From positions 1-51,867 of the forward strand of contig DYFC01000026.1 in NCBI GenBank assembly GCA_020725385.1: a DNA stretch of 51,867 nt. Direction: 5' to 3'. Of this stretch, positions 40,347 to 48,571 are shown in pieces (the stretch's first letter is position 1; each line of letters starts with the position of its first letter). This DNA comes from Nitrospira japonica (GTDB taxonomy: Bacteria > Nitrospirota > Thermodesulfovibrionia > Thermodesulfovibrionales > SM23-35). The notes under the pieces are model-generated. The model saw only the letters and a list, made by a program, of their open reading frames with translations. It was not told where the DNA came from and searched no databases. A program made the translations under genes and the position numbers.

Positions 40347-40820
40347 TTACCATGTGCAGGCATCCCCTCCTGTCATTTCATTATTCTGATTGAGGCAAAG
40401 TTTTGTATTTTTTACTATAGTATTGGATTTGCCCATAGCCTTAGCAATAAAACCAGATGCTGAAGGGTCTCCGGATATTACAAGTTTATAATCGAACTTT
40501 AGTGCTCTTTCATCTCCCGGTTTAAACATACTATAAGTAGATTTAATTTGGGAGAAAGTAAGAGTTCCATTAGCACAATTTCCGCCTGATTTATAGTAGC
40601 AGCCATTTTCAGCATAATATTGTTCGAGAATAAGCCTTAATGATGTTAAGTTAGTTTGAGCTTCTGTGCGCGCTGCTTTAGTTCTTTCGCCCAAATATGT
40701 TGGTATGGCAATTGCTGCAAGAATAGCAAGAATAGCAATGACAAGTAAAAGTTCGATTAAAGTAAAACCATTTTTATTCGAACTATGCCGGCAACTTTTG
40801 TTAAATATTGGATTTTTCAT
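40347..40820 (-). CDS. Type IV pilin-like protein
   Basis: A 157-residue prepilin. After a 17-residue basic leader comes G/FTLIELLLVIAILAILAAIAIPTYLGE, the class III signal cut by prepilin peptidase before Phe. Glu5 of the mature protein is present. Later Cys pairs (NGCYYKSGGNC, and KLCLNQ..DACTW) likely form disulfides. AAAGGAGT precedes the ATG. It may be a minor pilin or a second major pilin next to the TMTC-like glycosyltransferase. Confidence 0.9.
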   Translation of the reverse strand: MKNPIFNKSCRHSSNKNGFTLIELLLVIAILAILAAIAIPTYLGERTKAARTEAQTNLTSLRLILEQYYAENGCYYKSGGNCANGTLTFSQIKSTYSMFKPGDERALKFDYKLVISGDPSASGFIAKAMGKSNTIVKNTKLCLNQNNEMTGGDACTW

Positions 40821-40926
40821 ATTGACTCCTTTCTTAAAAATATCCCAAATGTCATACAGCTTTATTTTACTATTTTATTTATTTTAAAACTTTATGGCAT
40901 TAAATTGCTTCCCAAAGTAAAAATTA

Positions 40927-42702
40927 TTATTTGCCCATCGGAATATTCCGTTTTGCAAATTCCACAATTAGAAGAAGCTGCATGGCTTCGTTAGACAAAG
41001 TGCCTCTTGGATCTAACTCAATTACTGATTCAAAATATTTTTGAGCTTTGTCATATTCTTTTATCTGAAGGTAACATAACCCGAGATTAAACCTTGCCTG
41101 TATGAATCCCGGAGAAATTAACAGTGCTTTCTCGATGTTGCTTATAGCTTTCTCTATCACCGGTTTTTTTTCTTCTTCGTTTTTGATAGATTCTGACATT
41201 CTTAAGTATAAGATTCCGAAATTACTGAGTGCTGTAATATTTTTTGGATTAGCCTTTAAAGATTCGTTGAAATAATCTTCGGCTTTTTGAAAGTTTTTAT
41301 TTCTCATCTCTGCTACTCCAAGCATATCCATGATAATTGATACAAGCTCCGCGCTTATTTTCTTCTGCTGTAAAGCAACAAGCAATTCTTTTCTGCCCTG
41401 TTCAAAATCATTTTTTTCCATTAAAGCTCTGCCATAGTTTGCATGTGCTATTGCAGATGAAGGACTTTTTGCAACTGTATCTTTCCATAATGTCAAATCG
41501 TTTTCCCATGCTTTTAATCTTTCGTATGTGGAAAATGAACCTAAGATTACTATCATTGCAAAAGATGTAAATAGTAATTTCTTATTGCTTATTCTCGAAA
41601 ATAAAGAACCTGCAAGAATACAAAAACCAGCAGAAGGTAGATATAAATATCGTTCTCCAATTGGAGAACCTATTTGAGAAACTAAAATAATCAGAGAAGG
41701 TAGCAATGTAAGAATAATCCATGATATTAGAAAGAATTCAAATTTACGTTTTTTAAAATATAAGAAAATTAGAAGGGTAAACGGTAGAAGAGCAATTACA
41801 AAAAATAAAGGATTTTTTGGCACATCCGGTAAAAGATTCAGATTAAATGGCAATATAAGTTTTTGGAAGTAATAACCAATAGCTCCCGATAAAATAGAGA
41901 AAAAATTTTCCATACGGATGCTGGCAGAGAAAAAAGCGTTATCAGTGCCGGGAGTTGAAAGCATCATATTTATAACTTTGCTTTGTCTTAAGATAAAATA
42001 AATTATAATGACGAAAGATAATGAAGTTAAAGAAAGCGCTATTTTTTTACGCGGCATGCCTGTTAGCAAACCATAGATTAATATAATTAAGAACAGGGAA
42101 ATTGCATTTTCTTTGCTAAATAGTGAAAAGAGGAAAAAAATACATGTCAGAACAAGTCCTGAAAATTTACTCTCTTTGCTATAGATAAGGAATGAAAGAA
42201 AAGCAAGTAGCAAGAAAATTGTTGAGAGTATATCGGTTCTTCCGGAAATCCATGCTACTGACTCTGTATGTACAGGATGTATTGCAAAAATAATTGATGA
42301 TAATAATGCAGGCATAATATTTTTTATGTTTTTATCATCGAAATTGCTATGGTAATTGTGAATTTTTCCATCTTTCGTAATCAACAACCCTGTTAAGAAA
42401 ACAAGTAAAGAAGCTATACTGTGAAGAATGACATTTGTCAGATGGTATCCCATTGGATTGAGATGCCAGAAACTATAATCTATTGCCATTGAAAGATGTA
42501 GAAATGGCCTGTAATATATTCCCCCACCCAAAAAGAAAGAATAAGGATTTTCCCCAAGGTTTAAAGGGTGTGTTATTAATTGAATATCGTCCCAAACAAA
42601 TTTATTCCAGATAGTAGGTAAATAAATTAGAAAAGCAATGGTAAAAATTAGAAAACCAAATATTAAAGTTTTCTTATTGTATGATTCTTTTACTTTTAAC
42701 AT
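40927..42702 (-). CDS. TMTC/PMT-like membrane glycosyltransferase with C-terminal TPR repeats
   Basis: A 591-residue protein. The first loop has FVWDDIQLITHPL with the acidic pair of GT-C mannosyltransferases. About ten helices follow (to about 410), including IFAIHPVHTESVAWISGRTD, the hallmark of this family. The tail (about 420-590) has at least three TPR units (AIAHANYGRALMEKND, ITALSNFGILYLRM, IQARFNLGLCYLQIKEYDKA). Such proteins glycosylate secreted proteins; here it lies between two pilin genes, so pilin O-glycosylation is a reasonable guess. No ribosome binding site; see the -10 at 42710. Confidence 0.88.
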   Translation of the reverse strand: MLKVKESYNKKTLIFGFLIFTIAFLIYLPTIWNKFVWDDIQLITHPLNLGENPYSFFLGGGIYYRPFLHLSMAIDYSFWHLNPMGYHLTNVILHSIASLLVFLTGLLITKDGKIHNYHSNFDDKNIKNIMPALLSSIIFAIHPVHTESVAWISGRTDILSTIFLLLAFLSFLIYSKESKFSGLVLTCIFFLFSLFSKENAISLFLIILIYGLLTGMPRKKIALSLTSLSFVIIIYFILRQSKVINMMLSTPGTDNAFFSASIRMENFFSILSGAIGYYFQKLILPFNLNLLPDVPKNPLFFVIALLPFTLLIFLYFKKRKFEFFLISWIILTLLPSLIILVSQIGSPIGERYLYLPSAGFCILAGSLFSRISNKKLLFTSFAMIVILGSFSTYERLKAWENDLTLWKDTVAKSPSSAIAHANYGRALMEKNDFEQGRKELLVALQQKKISAELVSIIMDMLGVAEMRNKNFQKAEDYFNESLKANPKNITALSNFGILYLRMSESIKNEEEKKPVIEKAISNIEKALLISPGFIQARFNLGLCYLQIKEYDKAQKYFESVIELDPRGTLSNEAMQLLLIVEFAKRNIPMGK

Positions 42703-42709
42703 AGAATTT

Positions 42710-42718
42710 ATTTTAACA
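42710..42718 (-). promoter_or_regulatory. Extended -10 of the TMTC-like gene, leaderless spacing
   Basis: Minus strand TGT-TAAAAT, seven bases before ATG 42702, just beyond the pilin terminator. The -35 is not recognisable. Predicted transcription start at or one base from the ATG. Confidence 0.4.
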
Positions 42719-42741
42719 GTTCTCTAAATATCAGATTAAAA

Positions 42742-42771
42742 AAAAAGGCGGGATTTAATTCCCGCCTTTTT
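42742..42771 (-). terminator. Rho-independent terminator after the major pilin gene
   Basis: GGCGGG and CCCGCC arms around an A+T loop, flanked by A and T runs, located 13 bases past the pilin stop (42784). It should also read in the opposite direction. Confidence 0.92.
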
Positions 42772-42783
42772 ATGCAAGTTCTT

Positions 42784-43335
42784 TTAACGTGCAGATACAG
42801 TTGTGCTGAAAACAGGATTTGTCGTATCCTGGGCGTATCCTTCAATTGTAATAGTAGTACTATTTGGTGCTCCAAGTATAATTTGTCCGGCTTGGGCTGC
42901 TCCTTTAGCAAAGAGACTAATTGTCCCTACAAAGCAGCTTCTTTCACCTTTATTTGCATGATGGGCAATGGCTTTATCTACAACGTCATCAGCACTTGCT
43001 GTATAAGTGCCAGTAGCCGTCATGCCATTATACATTGCTGCACAGGTTTTGGCAGGGTCTGCTTGGGGTGCTTCGTAACATTCTGCGTTTCCACCAGCTC
43101 CTGAAATTAAATATGGATCTCCCGAGACAACTGCATCAAGCCAGCTTTGTAATTCTGATACAGCACCTTTTGCGCCTGCAATAACACAACGAACCTTTGC
43201 TTTTTCTCTCTGGCCAAGATATGCAGGAATTGCGATTGCTGCGAGGATACCGATGATTGCAACGACAATGAGCAATTCAATGAGGGTAAAACCTCTTTGA
43301 TCCCTTTCCTTCATTTGTTGAATTGTTTTAAACAT
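42784..43335 (-). CDS. pilA: Major type IV pilin
   Basis: A 183-residue prepilin. Leader MFKTIQQMKERDQRG is followed by FTLIELLIVVAIIGILAAIA, cut after Gly, with Glu5 for assembly. The C-terminal globular part is Ala/Gly/Thr-rich with Cys at NAECYEA, KTCAAM and RSCFVG. It is longer than the short conductive pilins of Geobacter. GGGGGAAAG precedes the ATG (strong site), a sigma-54 promoter lies 150 bp upstream and a strong terminator follows: the layout of a highly expressed single-gene unit. Confidence 0.9.
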   Translation of the reverse strand: MFKTIQQMKERDQRGFTLIELLIVVAIIGILAAIAIPAYLGQREKAKVRCVIAGAKGAVSELQSWLDAVVSGDPYLISGAGGNAECYEAPQADPAKTCAAMYNGMTATGTYTASADDVVDKAIAHHANKGERSCFVGTISLFAKGAAQAGQIILGAPNSTTITIEGYAQDTTNPVFSTTVSAR

Positions 43336-43396
43336 CTTTCCCCCTTTTGTTTTAATTTAAGAGTTATTACTAAAAAATAATTGCCATCTCAACCTT

Positions 43397-43438
43397 TTCT
43401 GATTGGATTCTCCGGTCAAGCCAGAGAATGACAGAAAT
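43397..43438. repeat. Half copy of the 'GTCATTC' element in the pilA leader
   Basis: GGATTCTCCGGTCAAGCCAGAGAATGACAG: the GGATTC..GAATGACA half unit, within the 5' untranslated region of pilA as predicted from the sigma-54 promoter. Confidence 0.7.
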
Positions 43439-43494
43439 TCACATGCTTTTATATCTTTTTGCACCACCTCCTTTAATTTCGTTACTTTTAATAA

Positions 43495-43510
43495 AGCAAT
43501 CACTATGCCA
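43495..43510 (-). promoter_or_regulatory. Sigma-54 (RpoN) promoter of pilA
   Basis: Minus strand TGGCAT (43510-43505), five bases, TTGCT (43499-43495). The GG and GC dinucleotides are exactly one helical turn apart (-24/-12). Transcription would start near 43484, with a leader of about 150 bases. PilS/PilR-RpoN control of pilA is the known scheme in Pseudomonas and Geobacter. The rest of the 43336-43691 gap is A+T-rich; an AAAGGAGGT at about 43466-43474 has no credible start after it. Confidence 0.75.
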
Positions 43511-43691
43511 GAAAGTAAATCAGGAGGACTGCAATATTTAATATACTAAAAAATTATAAAACAATCAATATGTTTGTTAATGATTCTTCTACTAATACTA
43601 TAAGTTTTTTCTTTAATATTATATAGCTCAAAATTGAACAAAAAACAAAATATTGACAAAAATTGTCAATAAAAATTACATACTGGGACAA

Positions 43692-44126
43692 TTATTCCCA
43701 GCTATTAATATCCTGATTTTCTCCTTCACCACCGGGATTGCCATCGGCTCCGTAAGAGTAAAGGTCATAGTCACCATGTTGACCTGGAGATTCATAATGA
43801 TAAGGTCTTCCCCATGGATCATTTGGTATTCCTTTTTTTAAATATGGTCCGTCCCACCCATTTACACCCGGATTTACCTGAAGTGCATTTAAACCTTCCT
43901 GGGTGGTTGGATACCTTCCTGTTTCCATTCTAAATTGATCAAGTGCCTGACCGAGTAATTCAATCTGGGTCTTTGCAGCAGAAACTTTCCCTTTTCCAAC
44001 CTTGGAAATGAATTTCGGGAAAACCAATGCTGCGAGCATGCCGAGTATAACCATTACGACTATCAATTCAACTAAAGTAAACCCTTTTTTGTTTTTAACA
44101 ATACTGTTATCTTTCTTTTGAATCAC
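43692..44126 (-). CDS. gspG: Type II secretion major pseudopilin GspG
   Basis: A 144-residue pseudopilin. KKG/FTLVELIVVMVILGMLAALV is the cleavage and assembly segment. LDQFRMETGRYPTTQEGLNAL, then GPYLKKGIPNDPWGRPYHY and DYDLYSYGADG are the GspG calcium-site and core motifs. The start is GTG 44126 after TAGGAGG. No other gsp genes are in the window, so it is an orphan or the edge of a dispersed secretion system. Confidence 0.92.
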   Translation of the reverse strand: MIQKKDNSIVKNKKGFTLVELIVVMVILGMLAALVFPKFISKVGKGKVSAAKTQIELLGQALDQFRMETGRYPTTQEGLNALQVNPGVNGWDGPYLKKGIPNDPWGRPYHYESPGQHGDYDLYSYGADGNPGGEGENQDINSWE

Positions 44127-45375: not shown

Positions 45376-45975
45376 ATGTCAGGGATTCAGAGGGCTATTA
45401 TCAGTGTATCGAATAAAAAAGGTATAGTTGAATTTGCAAAAGAATTGAGCGCATTCGGGGTTGAGATACTTTCAACAGGAGGTACTGCAAAGGCACTGAA
45501 AGAGGGGGGTGTTAAGGTAAAAGAAGTATCTGAATATACCGGCTCACCTGAAATGCTTGATGGTAGAGTAAAAACACTACATCCAAAGATACATGGAGGA
45601 TTGCTTTGCAGAAGGGATAATCCAAAAGATATGGAAGAGATAAAAAAACATGATATAGGTCTGATAGATATGGTTGTTGTGAACCTTTATCCTTTTGAAG
45701 AGACGATCTCAAAACCGGATGTTACATTTGATGATGCTATAGAAAATATAGATATTGGGGGTCCAACAATGCTGCGTTCTGCATCAAAGAATTTCAAAGA
45801 TGTTGTTGTGATTGTTGACCCTGCTGATTATGAAAAAGTAATAAATGAAATGAAAAATAGTAATGGTAATATAAGTTATAAGACAAGACTTAAACTTGCT
45901 ACAAAAGTATTTCGACATACATCAAGATACGATACAATAATATCAGAATATCTTGGTAAGGTGAGTGAAAGCTAA
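45376..45975 (+). CDS. purH: Stand-alone IMP cyclohydrolase (PurH N-terminal domain only)
   Basis: A 199-residue protein corresponding to the MGS-like IMP cyclohydrolase half of bifunctional PurH. It carries [60 protein letters not shown] and [18 protein letters not shown], all intact. The AICAR transformylase half (about 320 residues) is absent: the frame ends at a clean stop and no remnant follows. So FAICAR must be made by a separate transformylase (PurV-type) or PurP elsewhere. AAGGAGGG precedes the ATG. The diverged PurD-like gene follows after 14 bases. Confidence 0.9.
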
Positions 45976-45989
45976 ACAGGAAATAAAAA

Positions 45990-47231
45990 TTGAAAGTACT
46001 TGTTTTAGGAGACAGGGGGAGTGAACATGCAATTGTATGGAAACTTTCCCGGAGCAGAAATATTGAGAAAATTTATTGTTGTCCGGGTAATGCAGGAATT
46101 ACCTCATATGCCGAATGTATTGAATTGAATAACGGGGCACTTGATGTTCTTGCTGATTTTGTAAAGTATGAATGGATAGACCTTGTTTTTGTCAGTTCAG
46201 AAAAATTTATTACACAGGATGCGGTCAGTCTTTTCCGGCGGGAAGGTCGCAGGGTAATAGGTCCTGATTCAAAAGCATTTCAATTGCAATCAAGTAGAGT
46301 TTTTTCACATGACTTATTTAAATTTTACGGGGTACCGTTGCCTGATTATAAAGCCTTTTCCGCATTTTTGCATGCTGTTGATTATATAATGCTGAAAGGT
46401 GCCCCTGTTTTAATAAAAACAGACGGACATATTCAGAATATAGGAATTTATAAGGCTCAGACAGTTGATGATGCGATCTATGCTCTAAAAAAAATTATAA
46501 ATGAAAAAATATTCAATGACGCAGGCAATCACATAATTATCAGTGAAATTCCCCGGGGTGTAAAATTTTCTTTTGTCTTTTTGACCGATGGTAATCATTT
46601 GAGACATCTTGCTACTGTCAGGAAAAAAAATACAAACAGCATTTTTTCGAAGACACTTATGTGTTTCAGTCAGAAACAGAGTATATTTGAAGGTATCGAC
46701 GATACATTGGATAAAAAGATTATCGCTCCTTTTCTTGATGCTGTTAATTCTGAAGGAATTAAATTTAAAGGTATATTTTCTTTAGATTTATTTTTGAATG
46801 ATAAACAAATATTTTTTCATGATGTAAACTGCACATTTGATTGTTTGGAAGCCCAGACAATTTTACCATTAATAAAGACAGATATGATGGATATTTTCAC
46901 AGCTATTATGGATGAGAAGCTCGATAAAATTGATATTAAACTGGAAGATAAACTCTCTCTGACTACAATGGTTTTTTCAGAAAATGAAGATAGGGGAAAT
47001 GTAATATCCGGTATTGAAGATATAATAGATGATAACATTCACATCTTTCATGAGAATACATCTTTTTCAAATGGTGACATTGTAACAAATGGCGATCAGG
47101 TTCTAAGTGTTAATGTTGTTTCAGATAGTAAAGATGAATTAATAGAAAAAGCCGGGTCAATTTTGAGTAAAATTAAGTTTAAGGGAATGAAGTATGATTT
47201 AGATAAAGAATTTATTTTAAAGGAGGATTAA
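45990..47231 (+). CDS. Highly diverged PurD-like (ATP-grasp) protein
   Basis: A 413-residue protein with the overall PurD (phosphoribosylamine-glycine ligase) outline: MKVLVLGDRGSEHAIVWKL, YCCPGNAGITSYAE, VIGPDSKAFQLQSSRVFSHDL, FKGIFSLDLFL and a late VNCTFDCLEAQTILPLI. But key GARS motifs are lost. KADGLAAGKGV is KTDGHIQNIGI, QDHKR is VRKKN, PNTGGMG is missing, and NxRFGDPE is NCTFDCLE. The frame is open and clean between purH and purE. It may be a pseudoenzyme, a changed-specificity ligase or a drifting PurD. No other PurD is in the window. The start codon is TTG 45990 (or a coupled upstream read). Confidence 0.8.
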   Translation: MKVLVLGDRGSEHAIVWKLSRSRNIEKIYCCPGNAGITSYAECIELNNGALDVLADFVKYEWIDLVFVSSEKFITQDAVSLFRREGRRVIGPDSKAFQLQSSRVFSHDLFKFYGVPLPDYKAFSAFLHAVDYIMLKGAPVLIKTDGHIQNIGIYKAQTVDDAIYALKKIINEKIFNDAGNHIIISEIPRGVKFSFVFLTDGNHLRHLATVRKKNTNSIFSKTLMCFSQKQSIFEGIDDTLDKKIIAPFLDAVNSEGIKFKGIFSLDLFLNDKQIFFHDVNCTFDCLEAQTILPLIKTDMMDIFTAIMDEKLDKIDIKLEDKLSLTTMVFSENEDRGNVISGIEDIIDDNIHIFHENTSFSNGDIVTNGDQVLSVNVVSDSKDELIEKAGSILSKIKFKGMKYDLDKEFILKED

Positions 47232-47729
47232 TTGAAAGCGCAGGTTTTGATTGTAATGGGTAGTGAATCGGATTTGGCCGTAATGGAATCCGCAGGAGAA
47301 ATACTCGAAAAATTTGGAGTTCCTTATGAGATGACAATAGCTTCTGCACATAGAACGCCGGCACGTGCGATAAAACTTGCTGAGACCGCAGAACAAAAGG
47401 GTATTGGTGTCATAATCGCAGGAGCAGGGATGGCCGCACATCTTGCAGGGGTTCTTGCAGCACATACTGTTTTGCCTGTAATAGGTGTTCCTATAGAATC
47501 TTCACATCTTAAAGGACTTGATTCTTTGCTTTCAACTGTGCAGATGCCGCCCGGAGTTCCTGTTGCTACAATGGCAATAGGAAAGGCAGGTGCGAAAAAT
47601 GCTGCAATTTTTGCTATACAGATTTTATCTGGTAAGGATAAGGAACTTTTGAAAAAATTCAAAGAGTATAAAAAACAAATGGCAATTGAAGTAGAAGAAA
47701 AAGCAAATAACCTAAAAAAGAAGAAATGA
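47232..47729 (+). CDS. purE: N5-carboxyaminoimidazole ribonucleotide mutase (class I PurE)
   Basis: Interconverts N5-CAIR and CAIR in purine synthesis. VLIVMGSESDLAVMESAGEI, the catalytic-His segment ASAHRTPARAI, IIAGAGMAAHLAGVLAAHT, PVIGVPI and STVQMPPGVPVATMAIGKAGAKNAAIFA are in order. Length 165 is normal, with a Lys-rich tail. The start is TTG 47232 after AAAGGAGG, adjoining the PurD-like stop. PurK is not nearby. Confidence 0.95.
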   Translation: MKAQVLIVMGSESDLAVMESAGEILEKFGVPYEMTIASAHRTPARAIKLAETAEQKGIGVIIAGAGMAAHLAGVLAAHTVLPVIGVPIESSHLKGLDSLLSTVQMPPGVPVATMAIGKAGAKNAAIFAIQILSGKDKELLKKFKEYKKQMAIEVEEKANNLKKKK

Positions 47730-48571
47730 AAGTTCACCTCGATTGTTTCCCTTGTTTTCTTAAACAGGCTTTAATTGCACTCAGACTTGGAACAAGTGAT
47801 GAAATTCTTCAGGAAACTATTCTGAAGGATATAATGGATTATATTAAGGCTGCCGATACTTCTATGCCTCCGGCATACACTACCACTTTTATCCACAGGA
47901 AGATACGTCAAATGCTCGGAGGAGATCCTTTCAGCAATATCAAAACAGAATACAATAAAATCGCTCTTGGACTTTATAGCAAACTTAAAACTATAGTATC
48001 AGAAAGTAAAGAGCCACTTGTAATAGCATCAAAACTTGCGATAGCCGGCAATGTTATTGACTTCGGGATTTTTACTTCAATTGATATTGAAAGCACAATA
48101 AACAGGGCGATGAATGACAATCTTAATGTAGATGATAGTAAGGACTTTTTAGAGTCATTATCATATGCGGATGAAATACTTTATCTTCTTGATAATGCTG
48201 GTGAGATAGTTTTTGACAGGATCTTGATAGAAGCATTGATTGAAAATAAAAAGAAAGTTAAAGCTGTTGTAAAGGGCTCTCCTGTTATAAATGATGCAAC
48301 AATTTTAGATGCAGAAGAATCTGGACTAACAAAGGTTTGTGAAGTGATTGACAACGGTTCCGATGCAGTTGGTACCATTCTCCAATGGACATCGAAAAAA
48401 TTTCAGGATGAATTTAACAGGGCACAAATGATTATAAGCAAAGGACAGGGTAATTTTGAGACTCTACTACATGCCAGGAAGAATATTTATTTTCTTTTCC
48501 AGTCAAAATGCGGTGTGGTTTCAAAAGAACTCGGTCTTAGTAATGGCGCAATGCTGCTTATGAAGGGATAA
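47726..48571 (+). CDS. DUF89/ARMT1-family metal-dependent phosphatase
   Basis: A 281-residue protein. The N-terminal CFPCF pair (C7, C10) marks subfamily I. DNAGEIVFDRILIEALI (near 154) provides the catalytic metal Asp/Asn. KGSPVINDATILDAEESG and ISKGQGNFETLL complete the site. Characterised relatives hydrolyse harmful phosphosugars and phosphopantetheine (damage control). Here the ATG overlaps the purE stop by four bases, so removal of unstable or wasteful purine-path phosphates is a specific idea. It is convergent with the HEAT-repeat gene. Confidence 0.88.
   Translation: MKVHLDCFPCFLKQALIALRLGTSDEILQETILKDIMDYIKAADTSMPPAYTTTFIHRKIRQMLGGDPFSNIKTEYNKIALGLYSKLKTIVSESKEPLVIASKLAIAGNVIDFGIFTSIDIESTINRAMNDNLNVDDSKDFLESLSYADEILYLLDNAGEIVFDRILIEALIENKKKVKAVVKGSPVINDATILDAEESGLTKVCEVIDNGSDAVGTILQWTSKKFQDEFNRAQMIISKGQGNFETLLHARKNIYFLFQSKCGVVSKELGLSNGAMLLMKG

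Follow-up and report, generated by a model that had tools for sequence, protein, structure and literature searches.

The N domain of PurD-type enzymes binds the phosphoribosyl group. For the GAR synthetase PurD of A. aeolicus the ligands of ATP (K103, K143, E185, E192 and K214), of Mg (E100 and K214) and of glycine (D212, R287 and E292) have been described (PMC8880213). A hand-over between PurF and PurD has been proposed from kinetics, with no stable complex found (PMC10912719), and the Aquifex pair proved too weakly coupled, which suggested a further factor (PMC3261824). Unusual relatives of PurD are also on record, as haloarchaeal genomes encode, next to a normal PurD, additional PurD-like proteins whose Mg and GDPE motifs are changed (PMC3261824). 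Inactive homologues kept as subunits occur in nucleotide and polyamine synthesis, including the inactive dihydroorotase chain (pDHO) that supports aspartate transcarbamoylase (ATCase) in Pseudomonas (PMC7053772) and the prozyme of trypanosome AdoMetDC (PMC5201418). In a search of literature open without subscription we came across neither a family of pseudo-PurDs in bacteria nor a paper linking "phosphoribosylamine-glycine ligase" with "pseudoenzyme".

Here we describe a degenerate PurD, referred to as pseudo-PurD, encoded in a stretch of 51,867 nucleotides (the window) that is an entire contig of the draft genome G000. It resembles GAR synthetase PurD (TIGR00877; 2YW2, 1GSO) in length, three-domain fold, place in a purH/purE operon and N-domain motifs, and differs in lacking the Mg and glycine ligands and the glycine-rich loop and in scoring below the family cut-off. 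With Pseudomonas pDHO it shares a full-length fold and the apparent status of an inactive nucleotide-synthesis homologue kept as a non-catalytic protein; for pDHO, however, the partner ATCase and its need have been demonstrated, whereas the partners of pseudo-PurD are candidates. As with the prozyme, a dead homologue coexists with a live one, but the prozyme arose as a paralogue of the enzyme that it activates, while the live enzyme here (PurD2) is a xenologue and pseudo-PurD is at most a candidate activator. The haloarchaeal proteins likewise are PurD-like, have altered motifs and stand beside a normal PurD, but they lack GARS_N, the domain that pseudo-PurD keeps best.

Results

The gene lies in a purH-purE-DUF89 operon (Table 1), a place that is constant across the genomes examined. 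The initial annotation of the window had proposed a PurD-like protein inside a purine operon with an intact frame and close spacing to its neighbours, and all of this held. Homology to PurD spans the full length (Pfam, TIGR00877), the 413 codons are open without an internal stop, and the frame begins 14 nt past the purH stop and leaves 0 nt to purE (TTG at 47232). The DUF89 gene overlaps purE by 4 nt, a position shared with relatives. The upstream gene, previously read as purH, had to be corrected, as only the IMP cyclohydrolase part is encoded there; the AICAR transformylase domain is a separate 433-aa frame (G000:C54:28775-29584). Elsewhere in the window three prepilin-like genes with the motif GFTLIELL or GFTLVELI are clustered at 40347-44126 (-).

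Table 1. Features of the purine operon and of the pseudo-PurD gene, in window coordinates
Feature	Position	Strand	Description	Basis
purH, N part	45376..45975	+	IMP cyclohydrolase (MGS) part only, 199 aa	HMM matches
pseudo-PurD (degenerate GAR synthetase)	45990..47231	+	413 aa, TTG start	HMM matches, AF2 model
N domain of pseudo-PurD	45990..46289	+	residues 1-100	preferentially conserved in the pseudo-PurD clade
apparently dead ATP-grasp region	46290..46940	+		GLAAGKGV loop lost, residue changes
purE RBS	47220..47226	+	AAGGAGG, within the pseudo-purD frame at its 3' end	sequence
purE	47232..47729	+	165 aa	HMM matches
DUF89/ARMT1-like damage-control phosphatase	47726..48571	+	281 aa	HMM matches

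In Pfam searches the PurD domains N, A and C follow in order along the protein, the N domain being the strongest; GARS_N (86.9 bits) and GARS_A (70.9 bits) are both above cut-off and GARS_C (34.5 bits) is slightly below its cut-off of 34.8. Against the NCBIfam model TIGR00877 (purD) the protein scores 237 bits, short of the cut-off of 288 that we used as the mark of an active PurD. The best of five AlphaFold2 models (pLDDT 85, pTM 0.86; the others 70-77) shows a complete PurD fold, in which all three domains (N, A and C) are present, and has a TM score of 0.92 to 2YW2, the ATP-bound A. aeolicus PurD.

Direct reading of the active-site motifs gave GHIQNIGI for the GLAAGKGV loop, VRKK for SQDHKR, FSKTLM for NTGGMG and NCTFDCLE for NCR(F/L)GDPE. 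To quantify the loss we used a set of 11 residues, namely the nine ATP, Mg and glycine ligands of A. aeolicus PurD (PMC8880213) and the ATP-grasp residues E283 and N285. The same ligand residues occur at the same numbers in the intact PurD of G007, a member of the window's family, and in this numbering the window protein shows E100Q (at the edge of the region), K103R, E185S, E192K, D212K, a gap at K214, E283D and R287T. Only K143, N285 and E292 are present (3/11). K143 alone is left of the ATP and Mg ligands E100, K103, K143, E185, E192 and K214, and the glycine ligands D212/R287/E292 read K/T/E, so that neither set is that of an active PurD. By comparison, all 11 residues are present in 79 of 80 named PurD relatives, and the sole exception, VGWY01000072.1, comes from the pseudo-PurD family itself; beyond that family these 80 contained no pseudo-PurD. 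An order-wide scan found a few further genomes with two copies, and in the one of these checked by residue (G039) both copies had 11/11. The window protein thus lacks the conserved catalytic residues of the enzyme to which it is homologous, as expected of a pseudoenzyme, and the stripping of catalytic motifs noted in the initial annotation was borne out. Judged from these residues, the protein is almost certainly not a GAR synthetase.

The same loss runs through the clade. The 17 pseudo-PurDs in which all sites are readable keep between 1 and 7 of the 11 residues, with E100 kept in 0/18, D212 in 0/17 and R287 in 0/17, while K143 is kept in 16/18 and E292 in 15/17. PurD2 and the intact operon PurDs have 11/11 in all full-length sequences. 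Homologues changing gradually while retaining their active sites had been raised as the picture that would speak against a stripped enzyme; change is indeed graded, but the active site is gone from every member of the clade. Since E100, D212 and R287 are lost in all readable pseudo-PurDs, inactivation appears to have occurred in their common ancestor, and the substitutes for D212 and R287, which vary between species, point to drift of the replaced positions afterwards. The pseudo-PurDs of G002, G012 and G013 score 484, 479 and 474 bits, above the purD cut-off of 288, so standard annotation would name them purD.

A canonical PurD (PurD2) is encoded elsewhere in the same genome, at G000:C64:5310-6608 (-), with 11/11 residues and 482 bits to TIGR00877, which rules out a genome without PurD. 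Because G000 also has PurF and PurN, GAR synthesis is no puzzle here, and the concern voiced on that point, for which a search of the genome for a canonical purD had been suggested, did not materialize. PurD2s of the family are 77-95% identical to that of G000, and among 296 sampled Nitrospirota genomes orthologues (E <= 1e-150) were found in nine, all in the window's family. This restriction suggests that PurD2 was probably acquired horizontally. PurD2 sits within a folate/C1 cluster (L074:4410-12079, on G000:C64) comprising folE, folD, a GltD-like FeS flavoprotein gene, metV, DUF2520, PurD2 and metF, the names having been assigned by reading translations.

Other families of Thermodesulfovibrionales usually have a single, intact purD, and nearly all genomes of the window's family carry PurD2 together with a degenerate operon PurD. 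In a maximum likelihood tree 16/16 degenerate proteins tested formed one clade (support 100/100) nested inside the intact operon PurDs. Its sister was the intact PurD of G007, whose genome, 83% complete, has a full-length PurH and no PurD2 that we could find. By this phylogeny the degenerate protein is the resident operon PurD of Thermodesulfovibrionales and not a duplicate, so the term paralogue used for it earlier has to give way to displaced orthologue, the working PurD being a xenologue encoded elsewhere. The resident enzyme probably lost catalysis after the acquisition of PurD2 or at about the same time, and conservation of a pseudoenzyme by way of xenologous replacement is well supported. 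What appears to be a second replacement was seen in G010 (contig C106, L045:735-5358), where PurD2 is cut to residues 243-433, about the C-terminal 190 residues, and an intact f2-type purD lies beside a transposase-like gene.

Selection on the gene was estimated as dN/dS by the Nei-Gojobori method in three within-genus pairs. Omega for pseudo-purD was 0.178 (95% CI 0.12-0.25; p = 4e-22 against omega = 1) in the first pair, 0.172 (0.09-0.33; neutrality rejected, p = 4e-8) in the second and 0.226 (0.15-0.34; neutrality rejected, p = 1e-12) in the third. Pseudo-PurD is thus selected as a protein in all three pairs (p < 1e-7), in agreement with the earlier suggestion of ongoing selection. In the same pairs purE and purH gave lower values of 0.055-0.104, and the divergence of pseudo-PurD is about 2-3 times that of the genes beside it in the operon; constraint is therefore relaxed, yet real. 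In about 13 genera of the family we saw no broken frame, and the two incomplete copies (G011 and G016) stop at contig ends. Synonymous divergence of pseudo-purD among G002, G016 and G019 was 0.12-0.26, compared with 0.5-1.1 for purH, radC and PurD2, which may reflect recombination or constraint at the nucleotide level.

Conservation is uneven along the protein. Pseudo-PurDs keep 16/36 of the columns invariant in intact PurDs within the N domain and 15/114 elsewhere (p = 2e-4), and their mean identity is 0.65 for N, 0.45 for A and 0.45 for C, against 0.76, 0.74 and 0.68 in intact PurDs. Residues E12, H13, P32, G33, N34, I37, D56, F57, K59, Y60, W62 and D64 of the N domain are invariant in the clade, while R11 of the GREHA motif is kept in only 7/17. 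The clade has also fixed residues of its own in the cleft region, in window-protein numbering T290 (17/17), P293 (17/17), D/E266 (16/17; D266 in the window protein) and S264 (15/17), and these hold on long branches. Taken together, we regard it as highly probable that pseudo-PurD is a selected, functional protein.

Two links to neighbouring peculiarities of the pathway were considered and rejected. The split PurH is not the cause of pseudo-PurD, as the f2 relative G020 has a split PurH and an intact PurD; PurP, looked for as a link to the split, was absent. Nor does pseudo-PurD replace PurK, which did not reach its family cut-off in any of 26 genomes (G000 and 25 related), those with an intact PurD included. 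PurE was present in nearly all genomes checked for PurK, and PurE of Thermodesulfovibrionales may use AIR and CO2 directly. Some relatives have extra DNA between purH and pseudo-purD (1.0 kb at L055:1557-2594 and 0.7 kb at L038:2373-3061) with open frames and repeats, and no remnants of the lost C part of PurH were found in these gaps. In most cases the upstream gap closes with a GAGGTTAT-like sequence just ahead of pseudo-purD, so the gene seems to keep its own RBS.

Discussion

Our best reading, which we consider somewhat more probable than not, is that of a non-catalytic pseudo-GAR-synthetase kept after xenologous replacement. The family ancestor would have gained a foreign PurD2, making the resident GAR synthetase redundant; the redundant enzyme would then have lost glycine activation and, now devoid of catalysis, would have been retained for a non-catalytic role. 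In that role it may bind a ligand with a phosphoribosyl group, a protein of the purine pathway, or both, and may modulate or scaffold early purine synthesis, comparable to the support that pDHO gives ATCase; the candidate binding targets are phosphoribosylamine or GAR, PurF, PurH-N and PurE. The best-kept N domain, with the EHA and PGN motifs that are a signature of PurD, and a dead cleft with newly fixed residues suggest that it is probably a binding subunit. From these sequence patterns we lean slightly towards a binding, scaffold or regulatory role within purine synthesis, and the scaffold or regulator that the initial annotation had in mind is possible. Evolutionary rates are of little help, since the rate of pseudo-PurD correlates with that of every neighbour, cysS and rlmB included, and therefore singles out no partner. 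A more specific proposal would be that PurD, having lost catalysis once the foreign PurD took over, evolved into a non-catalytic protein dedicated to the labile PRA/GAR step, either as a carrier of PRA or as the coupling factor missing between PurF and PurD. A PurD-derived candidate carrier would fit the weak Aquifex coupling, though we rate this proposal as unlikely.

It could also be argued that pseudo-PurD is an activator subunit specific to PurD2, in a heteromer where the live enzyme depends on its dead homologue for activation, as trypanosome AdoMetDC does on the prozyme. Within the family the two proteins occur in nearly the same genomes, and G007, in which PurD2 was not found, is also without pseudo-PurD. 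However, G010 (genome contamination 6%) still keeps pseudo-PurD despite its truncated PurD2 and its intact f2-type PurD, which speaks against a function that depends solely on PurD2, and the rates of the two proteins are uncorrelated, although those of PurD2 scarcely vary. We consider such an activator improbable.

An ATP-grasp ligase acting on a new substrate, as proposed in the initial annotation, or another enzyme of new specificity would agree with the complete fold, the well-kept K143 and E292 and the new acidic D/E266 fixed in the cleft region. However, the clade as a whole does not conserve the Gly-rich loop, the residues E100, E192 and K214 or the metal ligands E283/N285, leaving no common ATP/Mg site, and PurK stays below its cut-off in all 26 genomes tested, whatever the state of PurD; we therefore find a new ligase quite unlikely. 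Equally doubtful is a functionless gene that is dying slowly, or a frame kept only against polarity and for the purE RBS. Its fast divergence and the position of AAGGAGG inside its 3' end would agree with this, but a frame kept merely for translation predicts an omega near 1, far from the 0.17-0.23 measured, no frame is disrupted in the family and residues are conserved clade-wide, and the gene has not been lost where 0.7 kb or 1 kb of extra DNA separates it from purH. That pseudo-PurD continues to make GAR alongside PurD2, by means of catalytic residues that have moved elsewhere in the protein, is very improbable in spite of the whole fold and the three members scoring as purD, as D212 and R287 are missing from every readable member, with substitutes that differ by species.

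The retained pseudo-GAR-synthetase carries a warning for annotation, in that three members exceed the curated purD cut-off yet are without the glycine-binding residues. It also offers a clean natural example of xenologous replacement, as about 13 genera have kept the displaced enzyme in the form of a pseudoenzyme, with intermediate stages preserved. Its retention under selection suggests that it took on a non-catalytic function. Should purine enzymes or intermediates prove to be its binding partners, it would help to ask whether early purine synthesis is organised in bacteria and to study the transfer of short-lived phosphoribosylamine from PurF to PurD.
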